A DNA stretch of 7,226 bases from Fibrobacter sp. (GTDB lineage Bacteria > Fibrobacterota > Fibrobacteria > Fibrobacterales > Fibrobacteraceae), in the NCBI GenBank assembly GCA_017520105.1, contig JAFWRL010000154.1, positions 1 to 7,226 on the forward strand, in the 5' to 3' direction. This document shows positions 1 to 7,226 of this stretch, piece after piece. The position numbers were made by a program, and so were the translations under genes. Numbering within the stretch: the stretch's first letter is position 1; every line of letters begins with the position of its first letter. Under the pieces are notes generated by a model that saw only the letters and a program-made list of their open reading frames with translations, had not been told where the DNA came from and searched no databases.

Positions 1-881
1 ATCACGACTTCGCCGAAGACCTTCTTTTCGAGAGCCTTGAGACCTGCTTCGTTCACGAGTTTGCCGTTTTCATCGAAGAATTCTTTGGCTTCAGGCATGC
101 GGGCGACGTTGTCGCGGACGCGCGGCTGGCAAAGGCGGAGGTTACTGTCGATGCGGTTCGGCTGGCCCGGGCCAAGACCCATCACTTGGAAATAACCCGG
201 CTTGTATTCGTAGCACATCACGATGGCGTTGGACTTCGTGTGCTTCGTGTCGAGCCAAGTGAAGCGGGCGAGGTCTTCCTTGTTCTTCGGGAACTGGGCC
301 TTCGTGACGCATTCGAACTTTTCCCAAGTACCGATGTCGCGGTCCTGGACGAGCATGCCGCCAATCACGTGCTTATAGACTTTGCATGCGACAGCCTTCT
401 TGATTTCGCCTACTTCGAGGAGGCGAATATCCTTGGACTTGTTCTTCAAAAATTCGAGAGCGTCGTCATCGAATGCCGGAGCGAGCAAGATTTCGACGAA
501 CTTGCCCTTGAGGAATTCGGCAGTCTTAAGATCGACCTTGCGGGTCACTGCAATCACAGAACCGAAAGCGGACACCGGGTCACCTGCCCATGCGGCTTCC
601 AAAGCTTCGCGGAGCGTTTCGCCTGTGGCAAGACCGCACGGGTTCATGTGCTTCACGATTACGACTGCATTGCCGTCGCTGAATTCGCGAGCCATTTCGA
701 GGGCTGCGTCGGCGTCAACAATGTTGTTGTACGAAAGTTCCTTACCCCAGAGTTGCTTTGCAGAAGCGAGGTTTGCTTCGGTGCAGGTCGGGTCGCGGTA
801 GAACACGGCGGACTGGTGGGAGTTTTCACCGTAACGCATCGGCACGGGATCAACAAACTTAAGATTCAATTCTTCGGACAT
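1..881 (-). CDS. purH: Stand-alone AICAR transformylase (phosphoribosylaminoimidazolecarboxamide formyltransferase), 3' end cut off by window
   Basis: The enzyme transfers a formyl group from 10-formyltetrahydrofolate to AICAR, giving FAICAR, the penultimate step of purine synthesis in the cytoplasm. The 293 visible residues show AICARFT hallmarks: RYGENSHQ (16-23), GKELSYNNIVDADAALE (46-62), the catalytic Lys-His in VIVKHMNPCG (74-83; K77, H78), DPVSAFGSVIAV (101-112), GGMLVQD (174-180) and GPGQPNRIDSN (237-247). Bifunctional PurH carries an IMP cyclohydrolase (MGS-like) domain of about 200 residues before RYGEN; here only 15 residues precede it. The ATG at 879-881 has a good AAAGGAAA ribosome binding site (886-893), so the short start looks genuine rather than a truncation. 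The C-terminal roughly 100 residues lie beyond the left edge. The symbol purH fits the activity only; the cyclohydrolase must be encoded elsewhere. SHQ replaces the more usual PHQ. Confidence 0.92.
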   Translation of the reverse strand, partial: MSEELNLKFVDPVPMRYGENSHQSAVFYRDPTCTEANLASAKQLWGKELSYNNIVDADAALEMAREFSDGNAVVIVKHMNPCGLATGETLREALEAAWAGDPVSAFGSVIAVTRKVDLKTAEFLKGKFVEILLAPAFDDDALEFLKNKSKDIRLLEVGEIKKAVACKVYKHVIGGMLVQDRDIGTWEKFECVTKAQFPKNKEDLARFTWLDTKHTKSNAIVMCYEYKPGYFQVMGLGPGQPNRIDSNLRLCQPRVRDNVARMPEAKEFFDENGKLVNEAGLKALEKKVFGEVV

Positions 882-912
882 ATCGTTTCCTTTGTGAATT
901 TTTTCCGAAAAA

Positions 913-918
913 AATATA
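913..918 (-). promoter_or_regulatory. Candidate -10 element upstream of the AICAR transformylase
   Basis: On the minus strand TATATT lies 32 bases upstream of the ATG at 881, followed by a T-rich run, a suitable place for a -10 box. I see no convincing -35 hexamer 16-18 bases upstream, so this is a weak, position-based call. Confidence 0.3.
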
Positions 919-963
919 GAAAAAACACAATTCATCATCCGGAAGTCCGTCTTCTTGAACCCC

Positions 964-1014
964 TGTCATCCTCGACCTTGTCATCCTGAATCCTGCAAGG
1001 GTGAAGGATCCAGT
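964..1014. repeat. REP-like repeat between the FISUMP lipoprotein and the AICAR transformylase gene
   Basis: TGTCATCCT occurs twice, at 964-972 and 979-987, 15 bases apart. The second copy begins an imperfect hairpin: ATCCT (983-987) pairs with AGGAT (1005-1009), and an inner CCT (992-994) pairs with AGG (998-1000). The element ends in GGATCCAGT (1006-1014). The GTCATCC end matches the ends of the palindromes found inside the neighbouring lipoprotein gene. From memory, elements of the form TGTCATCCTGA...AAGGATCCAGT are common between Fibrobacter genes; I could not check this. The first TGTCATCCT may be a truncated second copy. Confidence 0.6.
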
Positions 1015-1047
1015 TACGGTATGGTTTTTCGAATTTGGGAGATTGTT

Positions 1048-2202
1048 CTACTCAATTTTTACGCAACGGACTGAACGGCCCGTAGCTTTCGAACTGCTCC
1101 GATTTTCACTTATCCCAGTTGAGCTATCATCATCGTTTGCAACATATGCAGTACGAACCAGTTTCGTTTTTTCAGGATCTGTTTCTAGAGGATACTTTTC
1201 TTCAGGATACGCCCAATATGACGTTTCCAGTAATTCACGGAACCCACCCTCAAGTGTTCTCAAACCACCACCAATAAGGGAAAATCCGCTCGTATTGTAA
1301 CCGCTAAAGCATTGCGAACGAAGCCCAGGTGCGTAGCCGTCGTCATATTTATCATAAAATTCTTTTACAATAACAAAATCATCCCACGTAAACAAGCGCC
1401 AACCTTCAGGACAGATTCCACGGTGTTTGCGTTCAATATAATCATAACAGTTATCCGTATTACAACGGCTCGGCAGTTGCATCATTTCCGCCCACTGATA
1501 AAGCCCGCCATACTTGTCGCACATGGCAGGGTCATTATCATAACAGTAGCGTTCTATTTCATTATCGTCATTCTGCTCTTCTGAACCTAATACCATCTTG
1601 CCGATATTCAGGTTTTCTGCCATGACGGTCACTTTTCGCCCTGTTTTAGACGAATATGCTGTAAAGTAATAGTAGCTATGCCCATTGCGCGTATCGGTAA
1701 ACTGTTTGTAAATGGTATCCCTGATATTCCAGTTATCTGCCAGGCACTTAAAATGATCAAACGGCTCAAAACTGCTACTGGATTCCGGATCAGGTCCGGA
1801 ATGACGGCTGCTGCTAAGGATGACGGAAGAAGAGGATGACAGCATTACGTCATTGCGAGAACTCGAAGAGTTCGTGGCAATCCCTTTACTGGAACTAGAT
1901 GGTGATCCCGGAACTGAGTCCGGGATGACAACGCTGGAAGAAGAAGTTTTTTTGACGGAAGAAGAAGAGGCTTTCGAGGAACTGCTACTTGTCTTGCCGG
2001 CATCGCCTTTTTTACTGCTGCTTGAAGGGCGGTTTCCGCTTGAAGCGGGAATGACAGAAGAAGAGGATGAAGACGAAACATATTCCTCATTGTTCGAGGA
2101 AGTTCCGCTGTCGCCGCCGCAGGCGAATAAAGAGGCGCAAAGCGCAATGCTTGCAACGACAAAAACGCAATTGTTCAAAAATGACAATTTAAAATCTCTC
2201 AT
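1048..2202 (-). CDS. FISUMP-domain lipoprotein with Ser-rich linker
   Basis: This is a predicted lipoprotein of 384 residues. The signal peptide (1-27) has a hydrophobic core and a lipobox ending SLFAC, with Cys28 as the lipidated residue. Residues 43-145 form a low-complexity Ser-rich linker. The C-terminal domain (about 165-384) matches FISUMP as I know it: VTVMAENLNIG (191-201), RYCYDNDPAMCDKYGGLYQWAEM (218-240), CPEGWRLFTWDDF (264-276), GFSLIGGGLRT (306-316), SYWAYPEE (328-335) and a terminal SVRCVK (377-382). The many cysteines suggest disulphides outside the cytoplasm. The exact function of the domain is not known to me. The start is placed at 2202 because GGAG lies just upstream; an in-frame ATG at 2241 lacks a ribosome binding site and would put 13 extra residues before the signal peptide. 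The linker DNA holds several palindromic repeats, listed separately. The gene follows the NifU-like gene by 63 bases. Confidence 0.88.
   Translation of the reverse strand: MRDFKLSFLNNCVFVVASIALCASLFACGGDSGTSSNNEEYVSSSSSSSVIPASSGNRPSSSSKKGDAGKTSSSSSKASSSSVKKTSSSSVVIPDSVPGSPSSSSKGIATNSSSSRNDVMLSSSSSVILSSSRHSGPDPESSSSFEPFDHFKCLADNWNIRDTIYKQFTDTRNGHSYYYFTAYSSKTGRKVTVMAENLNIGKMVLGSEEQNDDNEIERYCYDNDPAMCDKYGGLYQWAEMMQLPSRCNTDNCYDYIERKHRGICPEGWRLFTWDDFVIVKEFYDKYDDGYAPGLRSQCFSGYNTSGFSLIGGGLRTLEGGFRELLETSYWAYPEEKYPLETDPEKTKLVRTAYVANDDDSSTGISENRSSSKATGRSVRCVKIE
1780..1807 (-). repeat. Palindromic repeat A inside the lipoprotein linker
   Basis: There is a perfect 8-bp inverted repeat: ATTCCGGA (1782-1789), a 5-base loop, and TCCGGAAT (1795-1802), followed by GACGG. 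On the coding strand it begins CGTCATTCC and is translated as RHSGPDPES (residues 133-141). Its frame is shifted by one base from the frame in which repeats C and D are read. Together with C and D it defines a family with a GTCAT(T/C)CC end. Confidence 0.75.
1850..1883 (-). repeat. Palindromic repeat B (CATTGCGAG type) inside the lipoprotein linker
   Basis: This element has nested inverted repeats: outer ATTGC (1852-1856) with GCAAT (1877-1881), and inner GAACTC (1859-1864) with GAGTTC (1868-1873) around a GAA loop. It is translated as GIATNSSSSRNDV (residues 107-119). The form CATTGCGAG...GGCAATCC resembles a dispersed palindrome I recall from several bacterial genomes, different in sequence from A, C and D. 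Confidence 0.72.
1904..1930 (-). repeat. Palindromic repeat C inside the lipoprotein linker
   Basis: There is a perfect 8-bp inverted repeat: ATCCCGGA (1905-1912), a 6-base loop, and TCCGGGAT (1919-1926), followed by GACA. On the coding strand it starts TGTCATCCCGG and is translated as VVIPDSVPGS (residues 91-100). Serine runs flank it on both sides. Confidence 0.78.
2033..2057 (-). repeat. Palindromic repeat D inside the lipoprotein linker
   Basis: TTTCCGCTT (2033-2041) and AAGCGGGAA (2043-2051) form a 9-bp inverted repeat with one mismatch around a single central base, followed by TGACAG. On the coding strand it starts GTCATTCCCGC and is translated as VIPASSGNRP (residues 50-59), the same frame as repeat C. 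The mismatched arm suggests an older, decaying copy. Confidence 0.65.
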
Positions 2203-2207
2203 AAACG

Positions 2208-2211
2208 CTCC
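2208..2211 (-). promoter_or_regulatory. Ribosome binding site deciding the FISUMP lipoprotein start
   Basis: On the minus strand GGAG lies 5 bases before the ATG at 2202. The other in-frame ATG, at 2241, has no comparable motif. This supports a signal peptide starting MRDFKLSFL. Confidence 0.7.
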
Positions 2212-2265
2212 AACTACAGGAAAAATATACAATTTTCCCATAGATGGAATTTGCCTAACCCCTAG

Positions 2266-3087
2266 TTAAAACAAACTAGCAGGCGGGTTGTTGTCGTCCA
2301 TTCCCGGCAAATTCGGGTTCTGCGGGAGGTTCGCCAGCGGGTCCTCGGGTTCAACGATAAGGTTGTAATATACGTTGTTCTTAAGTTCGTCTTCGATGTA
2401 GAAGAGCGTTCCGCCCATAGCGCTTCCGCAACCGGCGCATGCACCCTGGTATCGTATTTGCAGACGGTTGTCGTCGGTGAGGTCGAGAATTTCGATGTCG
2501 CCACCGTCGCCCTGGAGCGTTCCGCGGACGGTCTGGTGCAGCCACTGTTCGATTTTTTCAATCTTTTGTGCCTTGGTGAGAGCATTCCATTCGGCGTCGG
2601 CTTCGGCACGGCCTTCGGCGGTCTGCGTGCGGTACTTGATGCGTTCCATCTTCTCGCGGACGATAATCGCGGTCGCCTTCTTCTCGGGATAAATCTGCAG
2701 AATCTTCGAGATGAGCGTGTTCATCTGCTTGATTTCCACGGCGTTTTCCGGGATGGCACGCACATTCGGCGTGTCGCGCAGTTCTTCTTCGAGGCTTTCG
2801 GCGGTAATCTTGCAAGCGTCGTCAACCGTTGCCATCTGAATCTTGCGGCAGAACGAATCGGCAAGCGCGGTAAAGAGTGGCCCGCCGTACGTAAAGAATC
2901 TCGTCTCCAGAATCTTGTCGCATTCCGGGTCAATCATCAAATAGACCTTGAGGCTCGCTTCCTTCACATCTACGAGGGCGAGTCCCTTTTCGTCGGCTTC
3001 AATCTGGAAAATCGCCCCACGGTACTTCGGGGCTTTGGCAATTTCTTGTAACTTCTGAGAAAACTGTGCGCATTGTTCTTCGTTCAT
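2266..3087 (-). CDS. NifU-like protein: degenerate IscU-type domain plus C-terminal Nfu domain
   Basis: This is a cytoplasmic protein of 273 residues related to iron-sulfur cluster assembly. The C-terminal Nfu domain is well preserved: EKIEQWLHQTVRGTLQGDGGDIEILD (177-202), then GACAGCGSAMGGTLFYIEDELKN (215-237), with the cluster-binding pair C217-x2-C220. The N-terminal half resembles NifU_N/IscU (about 20-130; FFTYGGP at 64-70, then DACKITAESLEEEL). However, the usual YGC is YGG, no cysteine sits where the first ligand is expected, and the HC pair is missing. The central [2Fe-2S] domain of classic NifU is also absent; a charged helical stretch (135-185) takes its place. It could be an Nfu-type carrier with a structural N-domain. 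The start at 3087 fits a candidate promoter at 3144-3173 and the fall in GC content upstream; longer starts (TTG 3186, ATG 3165) would overlap or precede that promoter. No strong ribosome binding site is visible. Confidence 0.82.
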   Translation of the reverse strand: MNEEQCAQFSQKLQEIAKAPKYRGAIFQIEADEKGLALVDVKEASLKVYLMIDPECDKILETRFFTYGGPLFTALADSFCRKIQMATVDDACKITAESLEEELRDTPNVRAIPENAVEIKQMNTLISKILQIYPEKKATAIIVREKMERIKYRTQTAEGRAEADAEWNALTKAQKIEKIEQWLHQTVRGTLQGDGGDIEILDLTDDNRLQIRYQGACAGCGSAMGGTLFYIEDELKNNVYYNLIVEPEDPLANLPQNPNLPGMDDNNPPASLF

Positions 3088-3143
3088 GCGCGCAAATTTA
3101 GAAATTTGTTGCCCATTTGGTAAGACTTTTTCAATGCCTAGTG

Positions 3144-3173
3144 AAAATATGGGCTTTCCATGCATGTTGTAAA
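3144..3173 (-). promoter_or_regulatory. Candidate promoter of the NifU-like gene
   Basis: On the minus strand TTTACA (3168-3173, one mismatch to TTGACA) is followed after 18 bases by TATTTT (3144-3149). Transcription would begin near 3137, about 50 bases before the chosen ATG at 3087, which argues against the upstream TTG and ATG starts. Confidence 0.4.
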
Positions 3174-3209
3174 GTGCCCTACACAAAAATGTTTTCTACC
3201 CTAAAATGG

Positions 3210-3239
3210 GTGACGACGTTTAGTATATGATTGTATATT
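3210..3239 (+). promoter_or_regulatory. Candidate promoter of the three-module lipoprotein gene
   Basis: GTGACG (3210-3215) and TATATT (3234-3239) are separated by 18 bases and resemble weak -35 and -10 boxes. The ATG at 3267 follows 28 bases after the -10. The spacer is shared with the divergent NifU-like gene. Confidence 0.4.
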
Positions 3240-3266
3240 ACAGTGTAACTATTTAAGGAGTATTGT

Positions 3267-3998
3267 ATGAATTTCAAAAGACTAGCCCTTGGGCTTACTT
3301 TAACTGTTGCTTTCGGACTCATTGCCTGTGGCGATGACGATTCCTCGTCTCCAGTGGCGCCTTCGACCGAAACGACCGTTTCCAGTTCTTCGGTGACGAC
3401 GGAGGGGGGTGCTACGTCTTCCAGTTCCGAGACTGTTTCTGGCGCAGAAAATACGAAAGTCGCTGCATCTTCTGGTGATGCAGCACCAGCAAGTTCTGCC
3501 AGCGTAAGCAGCGGTGAAAAGGTCGCTTCTAGCAGTTCCTTTACGATGCCGGATATTGATGTGGGCGATATGGGCCAAGAGTGCTCCAAAGAAGGCGAAA
3601 AGAAAGACGGTAAAGTCATGGGGATGGATGCTAAACTCATTTGCCAGGACGGTGCTTGGGTCCCCGATACCACCGCTATGAAAGAAGGCCTCAAGTGCAC
3701 TCAGGAAGGTGCTACCAAGGATTCGACCATGATGGGCATGACCGTGAAGCTGGTTTGCAAAAACGGCCAATGGGCTTCGGACAATTCCTGTACCGAAGAG
3801 GGCGCCACCCAGGAAATGGACTTTATGGGGTCGAAAATGACTTTGGTCTGTAAAAATGGGGAATGGACCATGGATCTTGGCAACATAGACTTTGGCGGCG
3901 AAGGATTCCCCAACTTCGCAGATACCACTAACACGGGTTACGGTCGCAGCGACTGGGGCAAATGGTTGAGTGATACCACCAGGGTCGTTCGCGACTAA
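3267..3998 (+). CDS. Lipoprotein with Ser-rich linker and three C-x19-C-x4-W modules
   Basis: I do not recognise a named family. The 243-residue protein begins with a lipoprotein signal peptide (1-20; GLIAC, lipidated Cys21), followed by three aspartates and a Ser/Thr/Ala-rich linker to about residue 92. Three modules follow, each with two cysteines exactly 20 residues apart and a tryptophan 5 residues after the second: C106/C126/W131, C144/C164/W169 and C175/C195/W200. Their consensus is roughly C-x2-EG...MGM...KL(I/V)C-x-(D/N)G-x-W. The even cysteine number suggests one disulphide per module outside the cytoplasm. The tail (201-243) is Gly/Asp-rich. AAGGAG at 3255-3260, 6 bases before the ATG, fixes the start. 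The gene ends 25 bases before a hairpin terminator and stands alone. Adhesion, binding or a structural envelope role are possible, but the sequence does not decide. Confidence 0.85.
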   Translation: MNFKRLALGLTLTVAFGLIACGDDDSSSPVAPSTETTVSSSSVTTEGGATSSSSETVSGAENTKVAASSGDAAPASSASVSSGEKVASSSSFTMPDIDVGDMGQECSKEGEKKDGKVMGMDAKLICQDGAWVPDTTAMKEGLKCTQEGATKDSTMMGMTVKLVCKNGQWASDNSCTEEGATQEMDFMGSKMTLVCKNGEWTMDLGNIDFGGEGFPNFADTTNTGYGRSDWGKWLSDTTRVVRD

Positions 3999-4023
3999 TA
4001 GAAGTTCACATAAAAATTGAAAG

Positions 4024-4051
4024 GCCCGCGAAATAATCGCGGGCTTTTTGC
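4024..4051. terminator. Rho-independent terminator between convergent genes, probably bidirectional
   Basis: A perfect 8-bp GC-rich stem, GCCCGCGA (4024-4031) with TCGCGGGC (4037-4044), has an AATAA loop and is followed by TTTTT on the plus strand. It lies 25 bases after the stop of the plus-strand lipoprotein. Read on the minus strand it is followed by CCTTTCAATTTTT, so it may also end the metallo-hydrolase transcript, whose stop is 39 bases away. Confidence 0.9.
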
Positions 4052-4083
4052 TTCTATGATTTAATAACGAATATGACGGTCTT

Positions 4084-5034
4084 TTACTCCACGAATCCGG
4101 GGGGCGGCAGATGCATTCCCGCCATGAGGAGCTTGTTGTCGCGGGCGTATTGCAAGATGCGTTTGCGGCTTTCGATGGATTTTTTCTTGTCCATGTCGTA
4201 GTTCGAATTGATTTCGGGATGGTCTTTCTGCAATGCGTAACCGTGCATCAGGTCGCCGATTACGAGCAGGTTCCCGAACTGGAAGGCTGTGTGGCCGGGC
4301 GTGTGTCCGACGGCATTGAGCGCAAGAACTCCGTGGGGGAGACTCTCGCCGAATTTGAACAAATGAAGGCTGTCCTTGTAGATGCCCATGACTGCTTTTT
4401 GCAGGTCGTTTTTCGGGATTCTTTTCATCCAGGCTTTGTATTCGATTTTGCCTGCATAGACGCTTGCGTTCTTGAATACTTTGACGTCTTTTCCTTCGTC
4501 GTCTTTGGTGACGAGGCCTGCGATGTGGTCTGCGTGGAAATGCGTCAGGTAGATGATGTTGATGTCATCGGCTTTGATCCCGAGTGCTTCGAGGCGTTTC
4601 ATCGTTTGGCCGCCGAAGGCTCCGAGGCCTGCGTCAAACAGGATGTTCTTGCCGTCTGTCTGCACGAGGTATGTGCTTACGGAGGCAGGGAGGCCGTCGG
4701 GCATGTTCAGGCTTGCGAAGAGGGAATCGCTTGCGTCGCTGAAGAGACTGCGCGGGTTCAGCTTTTCGCCATCGTTGTCCTGTATCCAGATGGCTTTTGC
4801 GCCGTTTGCGAGGGTTATGGTTTTCGTCCCTTCTACGGCGCTGGCGGAATCGGCCGGTGCGGCTGTTTCGGTTGGTGCGGCATTCTGCTCTGCCGGTGCC
4901 ACTTTTTCCACTGGGGCGGGTTTCGCTGCTGGTTCGGCCGCCTTGTTTTCGGTGGCGGGGGTCTTGGTTTCGTTACAGCCGACGATGGCGAAGGTGGCTA
5001 TAGCGGCGATAAGGGAAATGAGATGTTTTTTCAT
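4084..5034 (-). CDS. Lipoprotein with metallo-beta-lactamase (MBL) fold hydrolase domain
   Basis: This is a predicted lipoprotein of 316 residues. The signal peptide ends FAIVGC (lipidated Cys20), followed by an Ala/Pro/Glu-rich linker (about 22-68) quite unlike the Ser-rich linkers nearby. The catalytic domain (about 72-316) has the MBL metal site: H165-x-H167-x-D169-H170 in LTHFHADHIAG, H247 in GHTPGH (243-247), D261 in VIGDLMH (258-264) and H308 in AGMHLP. The earlier strand reads LFDAGLG (132-138). These residues predict a two-metal, probably zinc, hydrolase tethered outside the cytoplasmic membrane. Substrate is unknown; lactonase-like, esterase-like and other MBL members share this layout. 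AGGAGG (5039-5044) lies 4 bases before the ATG. A spacer with a promoter-like TTGACA precedes the gene, so it is likely transcribed separately from glgC. Confidence 0.88.
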   Translation of the reverse strand: MKKHLISLIAAIATFAIVGCNETKTPATENKAAEPAAKPAPVEKVAPAEQNAAPTETAAPADSASAVEGTKTITLANGAKAIWIQDNDGEKLNPRSLFSDASDSLFASLNMPDGLPASVSTYLVQTDGKNILFDAGLGAFGGQTMKRLEALGIKADDINIIYLTHFHADHIAGLVTKDDEGKDVKVFKNASVYAGKIEYKAWMKRIPKNDLQKAVMGIYKDSLHLFKFGESLPHGVLALNAVGHTPGHTAFQFGNLLVIGDLMHGYALQKDHPEINSNYDMDKKKSIESRKRILQYARDNKLLMAGMHLPPPGFVE

Positions 5035-5054
5035 GGGGCCTCCTGATATATGCG

Positions 5055-5081
5055 AATATAAAAAAGAATGGGGGCTGTCAA
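5055..5081 (-). promoter_or_regulatory. Candidate promoter of the MBL-fold lipoprotein gene
   Basis: On the minus strand a perfect TTGACA (5076-5081) is followed after 15 bases by TATATT (5055-5060); a poorer TATTCG sits at the ideal 17. The ATG at 5034 is about 20 bases downstream, so the leader would be short. Confidence 0.45.
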
Positions 5082-5104
5082 GTTGGCTCCGTCAAAACAA
5101 TAGC

Positions 5105-5133
5105 AAAAATCCCAGCAATCGCTGGGAATTTTT
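5105..5133. terminator. Rho-independent terminator downstream of glgC
   Basis: CCCAGC (5111-5116) pairs with GCTGGG (5121-5126) around AATC, and the stem can extend through flanking A5 (5105-5109) and T5 (5129-5133). Read on the minus strand the hairpin ends in ATTTTTG, 43 bases after the glgC stop codon. It separates glgC from the next minus-strand gene. Confidence 0.82.
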
Positions 5134-5155
5134 GACGCGGAGTCCTTGCCGAACC

Positions 5156-5174
5156 TCTCTCGTCTCTCGTCTCT
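5156..5174. repeat. Short tandem repeat (TCTCTCG)n directly after the glgC stop
   Basis: Two full copies of TCTCTCG (5156-5162, 5163-5169) and a partial third (5170-5174) run almost up to the glgC stop codon (TAG at 5178-5176). On the transcribed strand it reads GAGACGA repeats. I recall similar GAGACGA repeats between Fibrobacter genes but cannot verify this here. Confidence 0.6.
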
Positions 5175-5175
5175 A

Positions 5176-6426
5176 CTATGCCTTAATAATAGTGTCTTTC
5201 GCGAGGACGACGATGCCGGATTCGGTCACGTGGAAGAGTTTCTTGTCGCGTTCGAGGTCATAGCCGATTTGGAAGCCTGCGGGGATGTGCAAGCCCTTTT
5301 CGACGATGGCTCTGCGGACTTTTGCGCCCGGGCCGATGGTCACGTTCGGGAAGAGGATGGATTCTTCGACCAGCGCGTCCTTCTGGATGGTGACGCCCGG
5401 CGAGAGGATGCTCTTGACGACTGTGCCGCCACCGATGATGCAGCCCGCGGACACGATGGAATCCACTGCGGCGCCTTGATGGGCGTTGTTGTCGCCTGCG
5501 AAGAATCGTGCAGGAGGCTGGTTCCAGTTGAACGTGCGGATGGGCCAGTAGTTGTTGTACAGGTCGAACGGCGGGTTTTCGGAACAGAGGTCCATGTTCG
5601 CTTCGAAGAAGGCGTCCAGCGTTCCCACGTCGCGCCAGTATCCCTTGGTCGATGCCTTTTCGCCACGCACGATGTTCGTGTTGAAGTCATAGACGTAAAC
5701 CGGGTATTCCTTGTACAGGCGCGGAATGATGTGCTTGCCGAAATCCGTTGCTCCGGAATTAGCGCCTTTCAAAAGTTCGCGCACGAGGAACTTGCTCGTG
5801 AAGAGGTAGTTGCCCATGCTCGCAAGGCACCAGCCCGGATGGCCCGGCATTTCCTTGGGTTGCTTGGGCTTCTCTTCGAAACCGATCATTCTGTTGTCTG
5901 CATCAATCTCGATAATGCCGAATTCGCTGGCTTCTTCGATTGGCACGGGAATGGCCGCAATCGTGAGGAGTGCTGCACGGCTCAAATGGAAATCAATCAT
6001 CTGGTTGATGTCCATCTTGTAAATGTGGTCGCCACCGAAAATAGCCACGAGGTCGGGGCGTTCATCGGTGATGAGGTTGATGTTCTGGAAAATGGCGTCG
6101 GCTGTTCCTTTGTACCAATCGTCGCCGGTACGCATCTGTGCGGGCACCAGGTCAACGTATTGATCCAAACTTGCGTTCAGGTTCCATGCTGCAGAAATGT
6201 GCTTGTTCAAGGAATCGCTCTTGAATTGCGTCAGAACCTTGATTTTAAAAATACCGGAGTTGATGAAGTTGTTGAGAACAAAGTCTATGATGCGGTATGT
6301 TCCGCCAAAGTGGACGGCGGGTTTTGCACGGTCGCGGGTGAGGGGTTGTAAGCGGCTACCTTGTCCGCCTGCCATGATCATGCAAAGGATATTCTTTTGG
6401 TGTTCTCTTGAGTATGACCAGCTCAT
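5176..6426 (-). CDS. glgC: Glucose-1-phosphate adenylyltransferase (ADP-glucose pyrophosphorylase)
   Basis: GlgC makes ADP-glucose and pyrophosphate from glucose-1-phosphate and ATP, the committed step of bacterial glycogen synthesis in the cytoplasm (EC 2.7.7.27). The 416-residue product is the usual length. Motifs in order: nucleotide-binding loop MAGGQGSRLQPLTRDRAKP (18-36), AVHFGGTYRIIDF (37-49), WYKGTADAIFQN (104-115), GGDHIYKMD (131-139), EFGIIEID (168-175), FEEKP with substrate-binding Lys186 (183-187), ASMGNYLF (202-209), DFGKHIIP (228-235) and GYWRDVGTLDAFFEANMDL (262-280). The C-terminal part (about 315-395) has left-handed beta-helix hexapeptides such as CIIGGG and VTIGPG. The start at 6426 (MSWSYS) has AGAGGAA upstream; the frame stays open to 6585, but that extension is AT-rich and not GlgC-like. 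The N-terminal Lys/Arg region implies the typical allosteric control by a glycolytic intermediate (inferred). Confidence 0.96.
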   Translation of the reverse strand: MSWSYSREHQKNILCMIMAGGQGSRLQPLTRDRAKPAVHFGGTYRIIDFVLNNFINSGIFKIKVLTQFKSDSLNKHISAAWNLNASLDQYVDLVPAQMRTGDDWYKGTADAIFQNINLITDERPDLVAIFGGDHIYKMDINQMIDFHLSRAALLTIAAIPVPIEEASEFGIIEIDADNRMIGFEEKPKQPKEMPGHPGWCLASMGNYLFTSKFLVRELLKGANSGATDFGKHIIPRLYKEYPVYVYDFNTNIVRGEKASTKGYWRDVGTLDAFFEANMDLCSENPPFDLYNNYWPIRTFNWNQPPARFFAGDNNAHQGAAVDSIVSAGCIIGGGTVVKSILSPGVTIQKDALVEESILFPNVTIGPGAKVRRAIVEKGLHIPAGFQIGYDLERDKKLFHVTESGIVVLAKDTIIKA

Positions 6427-6430
6427 GAAA

Positions 6431-6437
6431 TTCCTCT
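6431..6437 (-). promoter_or_regulatory. Ribosome binding site deciding the glgC start
   Basis: On the minus strand AGAGGAA ends 4 bases before the ATG at 6426. It selects MSWSYS as the start and not the longer open frame reaching 6585. Confidence 0.7.
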
Positions 6438-6650
6438 GTAAATTCGATTTAGTAATAGCTGCCCATAAAATACCATTTTTTTTGAAAAAAACGTTAAAAA
6501 TTTGAATTTTTGTTAAAAAATTTTTAAGAGAAACCACTGTGTTCAGCCGACTGCCCACGGCCTTCAAGTAACCGTTCACCCCCAAAATCCTCGCTTTTTG
6601 GTCCTAAATCCTATTCACGATTGTAAATTTTTTTCTATTTTTTCGCCCGT

Positions 6651-6668
6651 TCGAAATATCTCGAAATA
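6651..6668 (+). promoter_or_regulatory. 10-bp direct repeat upstream of pckG, candidate operator
   Basis: TCGAAATA occurs at 6651-6658 and again at 6661-6668, exactly 10 bases (about one helical turn) apart. It lies 28 bases before the pckG start, inside the likely promoter or leader. Direct repeats with helical spacing are typical of binding sites for side-by-side regulators; no regulator is identified. Confidence 0.35.
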
Positions 6669-6695
6669 AACACGTTAAACCTATAGGAGCTCATA

Positions 6696-7226
6696 ATGAG
6701 TCTTACTCTTAACGATATCAAGCACCCGAGAATCAGTACTTGGGTGAATGAAATGATTGCTATGTGCGAACCGGACAACGTGGTTGTCGTTGACGGCACT
6801 CAGGAAGAATACGACGCCCTCATGCAGAAGTGCGTCAAGGCCGGCCTCGCAACGAAGCTCGCCAAGAAGGAAAACTGCTACTTGTTCCGTTCTCTCCCGT
6901 CTGACGTGGCCCGTGTCGAATCCCGTACGTTCATCTCTTCCGTGAAGGAAGAAGATGCCGGTCCGACCAACCACTGGATTGACCCGTCTGAACTCAAGCA
7001 GACGATGCGTAAGCTCTACAAGGGTTGTATGCACGGCCGTACCATGTACGTGATTCCGTTCTGCATGGGCCCGCTCGGTTCCCCGATCTCCAAGAACGGT
7101 ATCGAACTGACTGACTCTGAATACGTCGTGCTCAACATGGACATCATGACCCGCGCTGGCAAGAAGGTCTTGGACATTTTCAATGCCGACCAGAATGCCG
7201 AGTTCGTGCCCTGTCTCCACTCCGTG
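6696..7226 (+). CDS. pckG: Phosphoenolpyruvate carboxykinase (GTP), 3' end cut off by window
   Basis: The enzyme interconverts oxaloacetate plus GTP with PEP, CO2 and GDP (EC 4.1.1.32) in the cytoplasm. The 177 visible codons cover the N-terminal third of a protein usually around 600 residues. They match the GTP-type family rather than the ATP-type: [13 protein letters not shown] (30-42), [14 protein letters not shown] (67-80), [13 protein letters not shown] (85-97), [24 protein letters not shown] (107-130) and [18 protein letters not shown] (138-155). PFSMGP is more usual than PFCMGP. AGGAG (6685-6689), 6 bases before the ATG, fixes the start. The GTP-binding and catalytic lysine regions lie beyond the right edge. 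In rumen succinate producers this enzyme is thought to run toward oxaloacetate, feeding succinate formation. It is divergent from glgC across a 269-base spacer. Codon use is strongly biased, as expected for a highly expressed gene (by eye). Confidence 0.95.

Follow-up and report, generated by a model that had tools for sequence, protein, structure and literature searches.

Dispersed palindromic repeats in the serine-rich linkers of Fibrobacter lipoproteins and in loops of unrelated enzymes

Introduction

How do palindromic DNA repeats come to lie inside a protein-coding gene, and what becomes of them there? The question is raised by a 7,226-nucleotide stretch of DNA from Fibrobacter sp. (assembly GCA_017520105.1, contig JAFWRL010000154.1, positions 1 to 7,226), referred to here as the window. 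A preliminary description of this DNA had noted palindromes within a lipoprotein gene and had proposed that a mobile repeat seeds or lengthens the linker of such proteins, with the palindromic elements of Rickettsia as the parallel.

In-frame palindromes are already known from Rickettsia and from several species covered by the main text of a study of CGTC-tagged REPs (Di Nocera, De Gregorio and Rocco 2013; PMC3733652). As described there, these repeats have a CGTC or TGTC tag, an 8–9 bp stem that opens with AT pairs, a loop of 4–5 nt and a tail of about 3 nt, mostly CCA. They are mostly intergenic, lie near gene 3' ends and have no dedicated transposase. Intragenic copies occur in some species, and it was already proposed that these are perhaps neutral in flexible linkers or loops. 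Clusters that code for 43 to 82 residues are described in Thauera and R. conorii (PMC3733652). In the same text, RPE-4 and RPE-6 of R. conorii are assigned to the CGTC super-family, which makes the parallel with Rickettsia closer than had been claimed. A recent review draws attention to the unusual frequency of in-frame palindromes in Rickettsia and describes their role in protein evolution as unexplored (PMC10969869).

Results

By its sequence, the window belongs to Fibrobacter: in the best-matching segment, its NifU-like protein shares 96–97% identity with the NifU-like proteins of two MAGs that are named F. succinogenes. The palindromes lie in a gene for a FISUMP lipoprotein (Table 1) with a signal peptide and LFAC lipobox, identified by eye, a serine-rich linker at approximately residues 45–158, and a FISUMP (Fib_succ_major, PF09603) domain at residues 207–395. 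The cell-envelope proteome of F. succinogenes S85 contains a FISUMP protein (PMC4619616), so translation of the linker can be checked. A second lipoprotein-like ORF with a Ser-rich stretch is present at window positions 3267–3998 on the plus strand. It has no Pfam match, and a scan of it returned no strict copy of the repeat described below and no match to its covariance model, R1.

Fifty syntenic loci were fetched via the neighbouring NifU-like gene. By a text filter, the FISUMP lipoprotein gene adjoins the NifU-like gene only in L001 among these 50, several of which end too near the NifU-like gene for its neighbour to be judged. A different Ser-rich protein, in the opposite orientation, lies beside the NifU-like gene in L009, L010 and L036. 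L009 and L010 are two contigs of one MAG (JAGAAW). Their NifU-like genes match equally well, and next to each is a gene for the same Ser-rich FISUMP-like protein; given this doubled locus, the MAG may contain duplicated or mixed sequence.

Features of the window are listed in Table 1. Three palindromes with a common GTCAT end, here A, C and D, lie in a single orientation on the minus strand of the lipoprotein coding sequence (ORF 2241–1048), as the preliminary description had stated. Its account of the arms also holds: they are perfect over 8 bp in A and C, and of 9 bp with one mismatch around a one-base loop in D when paired by eye. In the register common to A and C, the D stem has 2 mismatches of 8, and a scan of the window with R1 at E ≤ 5 did not find D. 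The reading frames are likewise as described, with C and D read GTC ATN CCN (VIP..), A read one base out of phase, and no stop codon in any of the three. A and C are intact copies, and D is a degenerate copy, of a dispersed repeat that we term type 1.

Table 1. Host gene, repeats and repeat-like pieces in the window
Feature	Position	Strand	Sequence, reading and basis
FISUMP lipoprotein gene, 397 aa	1048..2241	minus	Pfam PF09603 match and ORF translation
Element A	1779..1806	minus	CGTC-ATTCCGGA-CCTGA-TCCGGAAT-CCA (1806-1779); perfect 8-bp stem, 5-nt loop, CCA tail; R1 38.9 bits; read RHSGPDPES
Element C	1902..1930	minus	TGTC-ATCCCGGA-CTCAGT-TCCGGGAT-CAC (1930-1902); perfect 8-bp stem, 6-nt loop; R1 38.5 bits; read VIPDSVPGSP
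Element D	2029..2056	minus	TGTC-ATTCCCGC-TTCAA-GCGGAAAC-CGC (2056-2029); degenerate stem; read VIPASSGNRP
Opposite-strand F3 element	1848..1884	plus	GTCATTGCGAG..GCAATC family; sequence and codons; gene reads complement as GIATNSSSSRNDV
Likely deletion remnant of a reverse-oriented element	1990..2007	minus	Read GDAGKT
Two orphan GTCATCC pieces	1818..1840	minus	Weakly compatible with 5' halves of GTCATCCTGAG (F2) elements
Intergenic F2-family element	979..1013	plus	TGTCATCCTGAA..GAAGGATCCAG; sequence and family counts in relatives
Orphan half beside the 979-1013 element	964-971		TGTCATCC; sequence

Three features had been overlooked: the opposite-strand element, the likely remnant and the related intergenic element. 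The first belongs to a different family, F3, and its R1 score is low, at 12.8 bits (E 4.3). The GDAGKT piece is probably what a deletion has left of a reverse-oriented element, and the peptide GDAGSEAGMT or GDAGSKAGMT is present in 3 of 48 orthologues. The lone GGATGAC sites at 1818–1824 and 1834–1840, earlier suggested to be remnants, could be 5' halves of F2 elements, though the match is weak; at this place L001 has GTCATCCTGAGTAGC. By our reading, much of the non-Ser sequence of the linker traces to repeats, read in at least three ways.

To describe the anatomy of the type-1 repeat, 19 copies from the window and its relatives, chosen for a GTC-AT stem, were aligned. The copies have an 8-bp stem with variable arms and a loop of 4–6 nt. 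All 8 of 8 pairs are formed in the 18 distinct copies, which had been chosen for pairing; covariation in this alignment is therefore partly circular and was set aside as proof. The tag is CGTC in A and TGTC in C and D, and GTCAT is invariant across the alignment, whose members were themselves selected for GTCAT. Loops are of 5 nt in A, 6 nt in C and 4 to 6 nt in relatives. The tail is CCA in A and CAC in C; in relatives it is often CTCC, with T-rich sequence after it. In many intergenic copies the final letters are ATCTCCTTTT, and reverse-oriented linker copies include that tail, read KKGD. On this evidence the repeat unit seems to extend beyond the palindrome.

In its sequence features, the type-1 repeat fits the CGTC-tagged REP super-family. 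Shared features are the CGTC/TGTC tag, an 8-bp stem whose first pairs are AT, a short loop, and a mostly intergenic location with some intragenic copies. The Fibrobacter repeats differ in that loops are often 6 nt, against 4–5 nt in the text of PMC3733652, and tails are mostly CTCC.

Copies elsewhere, which the preliminary description had anticipated, are dispersed in the genomes of five relatives and are mostly intergenic, though the core of A is itself rare (with up to 1 mismatch allowed, it occurs at 7 places across 41 genomes; reversed control 0). At E ≤ 0.001, R1 has at least 54, at least 66, at least 142, at least 98 and at least 136 matches in the genomes of L001–L005. Under stricter filters, at least one match is present in 44 of 60 relatives, and among the 37 genomes listed before G040 the number of matches per genome ranges from 2 to at least 118. 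Contigs of the five genomes, amounting to 1,892,749 bp, have 3,802 GTCAT sites, of which 99 (26 per 1000) are followed by a stem. This density is not a genome average, since most of these contigs were chosen for high-scoring matches. The median over the 64 possible three-base prefixes is 3.4 stems per 1000 sites and GTC ranks first; the second-ranked prefix, GAG, is by our reading the other end of the same elements. A first prefix control on the 50 syntenic loci, in which orthologous sequence and long loops were counted, placed GTC fifth of 64 and was not decisive.

The 99 strict copies comprise 84 intergenic copies, 11 in coding sequences and 4 at edges, as assigned by a home-made gene caller that covers 80% of the DNA. 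Two of the 84 sit in uncalled Ser-rich ORFs, and among the 11 we judge about five to be real elements and the rest to be chance imperfect stems. The related families F2 and F3 share their ends with type 1. In relatives, F3 has 24 copies (15 intergenic, 8 in coding sequences, 1 at an edge), and F2 and F2b (GTCATCCTGAG or GTCATCCTGGAG..GGATC) have 32 and 11 matches, which may overlap and are mostly intergenic. Scrambled controls for the F2, F2b and F3 patterns gave 0 matches.

We also found the repeats in the Ser-rich coding sequence of other genes. Stop-to-stop frames of 150 aa or longer were passed through a loose coding filter, and those retained gave 153 Ser-rich tracts (11,644 aa), some of which are perhaps untranslated; part of this set comes from loci that had been selected for FISUMP. 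These tracts hold 6 perfect type-1 stems and 12 F3 matches, compared with a mean of 0 (maximum 0) and 0.86 (maximum 3), respectively, in 50 codon-order shuffles. Some of the permissive F3 matches look spurious, and the F2 count in the 153 tracts, 5, equals the shuffle maximum of 5. Type-1 matches that lie in no scored ORF of the FISUMP loci (for example in L103, L112, L100, L102 and L104) were excluded from the linker copies. Unbiased counts for linkers are small: Ser tracts have 2 perfect stems in 20,019 bp, versus 4 in 1,523,921 bp of called coding sequence on the same contigs (P 0.0013), and one of the 2 comes from a stretch selected for its FISUMP genes. When the A core was searched for irrespective of frame, 5 of its 7 occurrences fell in Ser-rich linkers, each read [RC]HSG[PL]DPES: three in other genes (L353, L354 and L359) and two in orthologues of the window gene (L356 and L357). 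No ORF of at least 70 aa covers the places in L355 and L358. Selection of the linker frames by hydropathy was considered and is unsupported, as the frames in use show no excess of hydrophilicity over an open frame taken at random (P 0.34, with 21 of 22 typed elements usable).

In-frame elements are present in ORFs of unrelated function, with type 1 in Ser-rich linkers and a carbon-nitrogen hydrolase, and F2 or F3 in TruB and HemC. Of 15 aligned relatives, 2 have an intact type-1 element in the hydrolase, 3 have other inserts and 10 lack an insert; a further 7 of the 22 loci were unparsed. In TruB a single loop, 17 to 105 aa long, contains F2 or F3 in 11 of 21 relatives, and the rest of the TruB ORFs (18,057 bp) has no F2 or F3 match. 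In HemC, a loop of 11 to 48 aa contains F2 in 7 of 18 parsed relatives (4 more were unparsed), and the rest of the HemC ORFs (18,606 bp) has no F2 or F3 match. The loop patterns for F2 and F3 are permissive, with a scrambled control of 0 in the loops, and no type-1 elements were seen in the TruB or HemC loops. The earlier idea that a mobile repeat seeds lipoprotein linkers is supported, but these linkers are not special: the hydrolase carries a type-1 element, and TruB and HemC carry related families.

Several further inserts were seen in such loops. The TruB loops of L269 and L271 have a longer in-frame insert, DDKCVGRESQPCLHGYDRAQHLGLEQSESPKTRDES, common to the two genomes, which is followed by F2b in one and F3 in the other. 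Two proteins named by eye as CobA/HemD-like fusions, at G003:C8:31615-33459 and G004:C3:111417-113261, carry loop elements of F2 and type 1 in G003 and of F3 in G004. The peptide LQTKDERG is present in both fusions and also in a helicase-like protein of G002:C18, where it occurs as LQTRDERG too, and is possibly a further dispersed coding repeat.

Orthologues of the window lipoprotein were compared as proteins, using the 48 of the 50 best homologues that have the conserved start (P0046 and P0049 were dropped), from the best 120 of 2,443 matches. Their linkers, which the preliminary description had proposed to align, are not identical. Linker length ranges from 56 to 152 aa, and the 48 orthologues have 14 arrangements of whole modules, or 24 if point variants are counted separately. 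A-type modules occur in 46, D in 47 and C in 23 of the orthologues, with IAT.SSSSRNDV in 22, GDAGSRSTSSGQAPAGMT in 19 and SWSEAIGS in 18. Modules co-occur in blocks, and the D block is doubled in 3 of the 48. At least one repeat-type peptide is also present in 35 of 70 further homologues among the matches listed. The N-terminus of the lipoprotein is nearly constant across P0001–P0050 while overall identity falls to 67%, which suggests diversification or exchange in the FISUMP part too.

Linker DNA was compared for three genomes: the window, L001 and a contig end in G023. The L001 linker has C and D unchanged and extra F2b modules, and one pair of its A stem is lost through a synonymous change, CAT to CAC. 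Relatives also have repeat-free linkers and loops at the places where others carry an element. Such presence/absence comparisons point to mobility of the repeat; no target duplication or exact element boundary is defined in the compared sequences.

A Y1 transposase was considered as the driver of dispersal and is unsupported. Y1_Tnp is present in 18 of 60 relatives. Of the 37 genomes that precede G040 in the list, taken as the nearest, 27 gave no Y1_Tnp match, though MAGs are perhaps incomplete. Among the matches listed for these 37 genomes, the copy number is not higher with Y1_Tnp (median 59, n = 10) than without it (median 68, n = 27; P 0.81). A strict element lies in the fetched stretch of 1 of 32 Y1 loci. 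The same observations bear on membership of the REPIN/RAYT system (GTAG REPs), which we rejected. Both are short dispersed palindromes presumed to be non-autonomous, but that system has a GTAG tag and a linked RAYT, whereas the Fibrobacter repeats have a GTC-AT tag and no consistently linked Y1 transposase.

Discussion

We consider it probable, with good though not full confidence, that these repeats insert as DNA, that in-frame copies survive where additional residues are tolerated, and that recombination reshuffles them in Ser-rich linkers. Each repeat would arrive in the chromosome as a unit of DNA, in most cases landing between genes, and most insertions would be neutral. Where an in-frame, stop-free copy falls within a residue-tolerant stretch, such as the Ser-rich linker of a surface lipoprotein, the TruB loop or the HemC loop, it would be kept and translated in the cell. 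Recombination between the repetitive Ser-coding tracts would then duplicate, delete and reshuffle the repeat-coded peptides of lipoprotein linkers, with the result that orthologues carry different module sets. Recombination between paralogues may also contribute to spread among linkers.

Three other explanations were weighed. That the palindromes arise by chance out of repetitive Ser, Gly and Pro codons has, in our estimate, next to no probability. In the window linker, 2 GTCAT sites head a stem when up to 1 mismatch is allowed. Shuffling synonymous codons within the linker gave two or more such stems in 71 of 20,000 trials, which shows that the same peptide can occasionally yield them. Redrawing the synonymous codons from other genes gave them in 12 of 20,000 trials, and shuffling the codon order in 0 of 20,000. 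The codon-order shuffles, the genome-wide dispersal of the repeat in relatives, and the occurrence of the A core in other genes and outside genes (with no match for the reversed control) together refute a chance origin. It is also improbable, if less extremely so, that the hairpins persist because they serve a role at the DNA or mRNA level, as a terminator, mRNA stabiliser or protein-binding site, with coding being incidental. The intact stems of A and C and the predominance of intergenic strict copies would suit such a function, as would the position of those copies, at a median distance of 52 to the 3' ends of flanking genes versus 140 to 5' starts. Against it, the A stem of L001 is broken by a synonymous change, D is degenerate in both the window and L001, an Rfam scan of the window gave no match at gathering scores, and the number of model matches varies widely among the 37 genomes.

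A more substantial alternative, which we still regard as unlikely, is that repeats entered a few ancestral linkers long ago and that linker DNA now spreads between paralogous lipoprotein genes by recombination via Ser-coding tracts, with the palindromes as passengers. The recurrence of [RC]HSG[PL]DPES with Ser flanks in different genes would be expected from such copying, the co-occurrence of modules in blocks and the doubled D block are consistent with it, and FISUMP domains, at 68 to 168 matches per genome, offer many paralogues. Yet type-1 and F3 elements lie on opposite strands of one linker, and the L001 linker has F2b in addition. The window and G004:C54 each have an RHSGPDPES copy, and a paired stem change, A-T to G-C, distinguishes the two; this compensated pair favours separate insertions over copying. 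F2 and F3 are present in TruB and HemC, which are not paralogous to the lipoproteins, and type 1 is present in the hydrolase.

Within the literature searched, the phylum, the strain-variable modules in Ser-rich linkers, and the loops hit repeatedly by different repeat families appear to be new. The search, which covered little of the subscription journals, returned no description of these repeats in Fibrobacter. Fibrobacter has 0 occurrences in the main text of PMC3733652, and no mention of strain-variable modules in Ser-rich surface-protein linkers was found in that text. The available text of the F. succinogenes S85 genome paper has no instance of 'palindrom' and one of 'repeat', in a reference title (PMC3079729), and that of RepRanger 2025 has no instance of 'Fibrobact' (PMC12306157). 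The Rickettsia elements remain a close parallel, as palindromes that lie in frame in many unrelated genes, with tRNA pseudouridine synthase genes among the carriers (PMC3733652). According to the main text of that study, RPE-1 lies in the tRNA pseudouridine synthase B gene of R. conorii, and REPs occur in several such genes; the TruB case in Fibrobacter therefore looks convergent. The two systems differ in that the Rickettsia elements, at about 150 bp, are longer than the Fibrobacter repeats and reside in an obligate intracellular alphaproteobacterium (PMC10969869).

For the biology of Fibrobacter, we put forward tentatively, with somewhat less than even confidence, that surface lipoproteins use the dispersed palindromes as a standing supply of linker cassettes. 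Continual entry of repeats into Ser-rich linkers, and their continual re-assortment by recombination, would generate combinatorial variation between strains in the length and sequence of the linker, with loops of housekeeping enzymes such as TruB and HemC being hit repeatedly alongside. In Rickettsia, relaxed selection in a shrinking intracellular genome is, as we see it, an easy excuse for palindromes within genes. Fibrobacter, a rumen genus, is free-living and can be cultivated; the number of repeat copies in its genomes reaches more than 100, loops of conserved enzymes are hit repeatedly, and linkers of surface proteins consist in part of repeat-coded peptides. In such a genus the entry of repeat DNA into genes and the survival of particular frames would become testable, as would the idea that noncoding repeats supply disordered segments of proteins.
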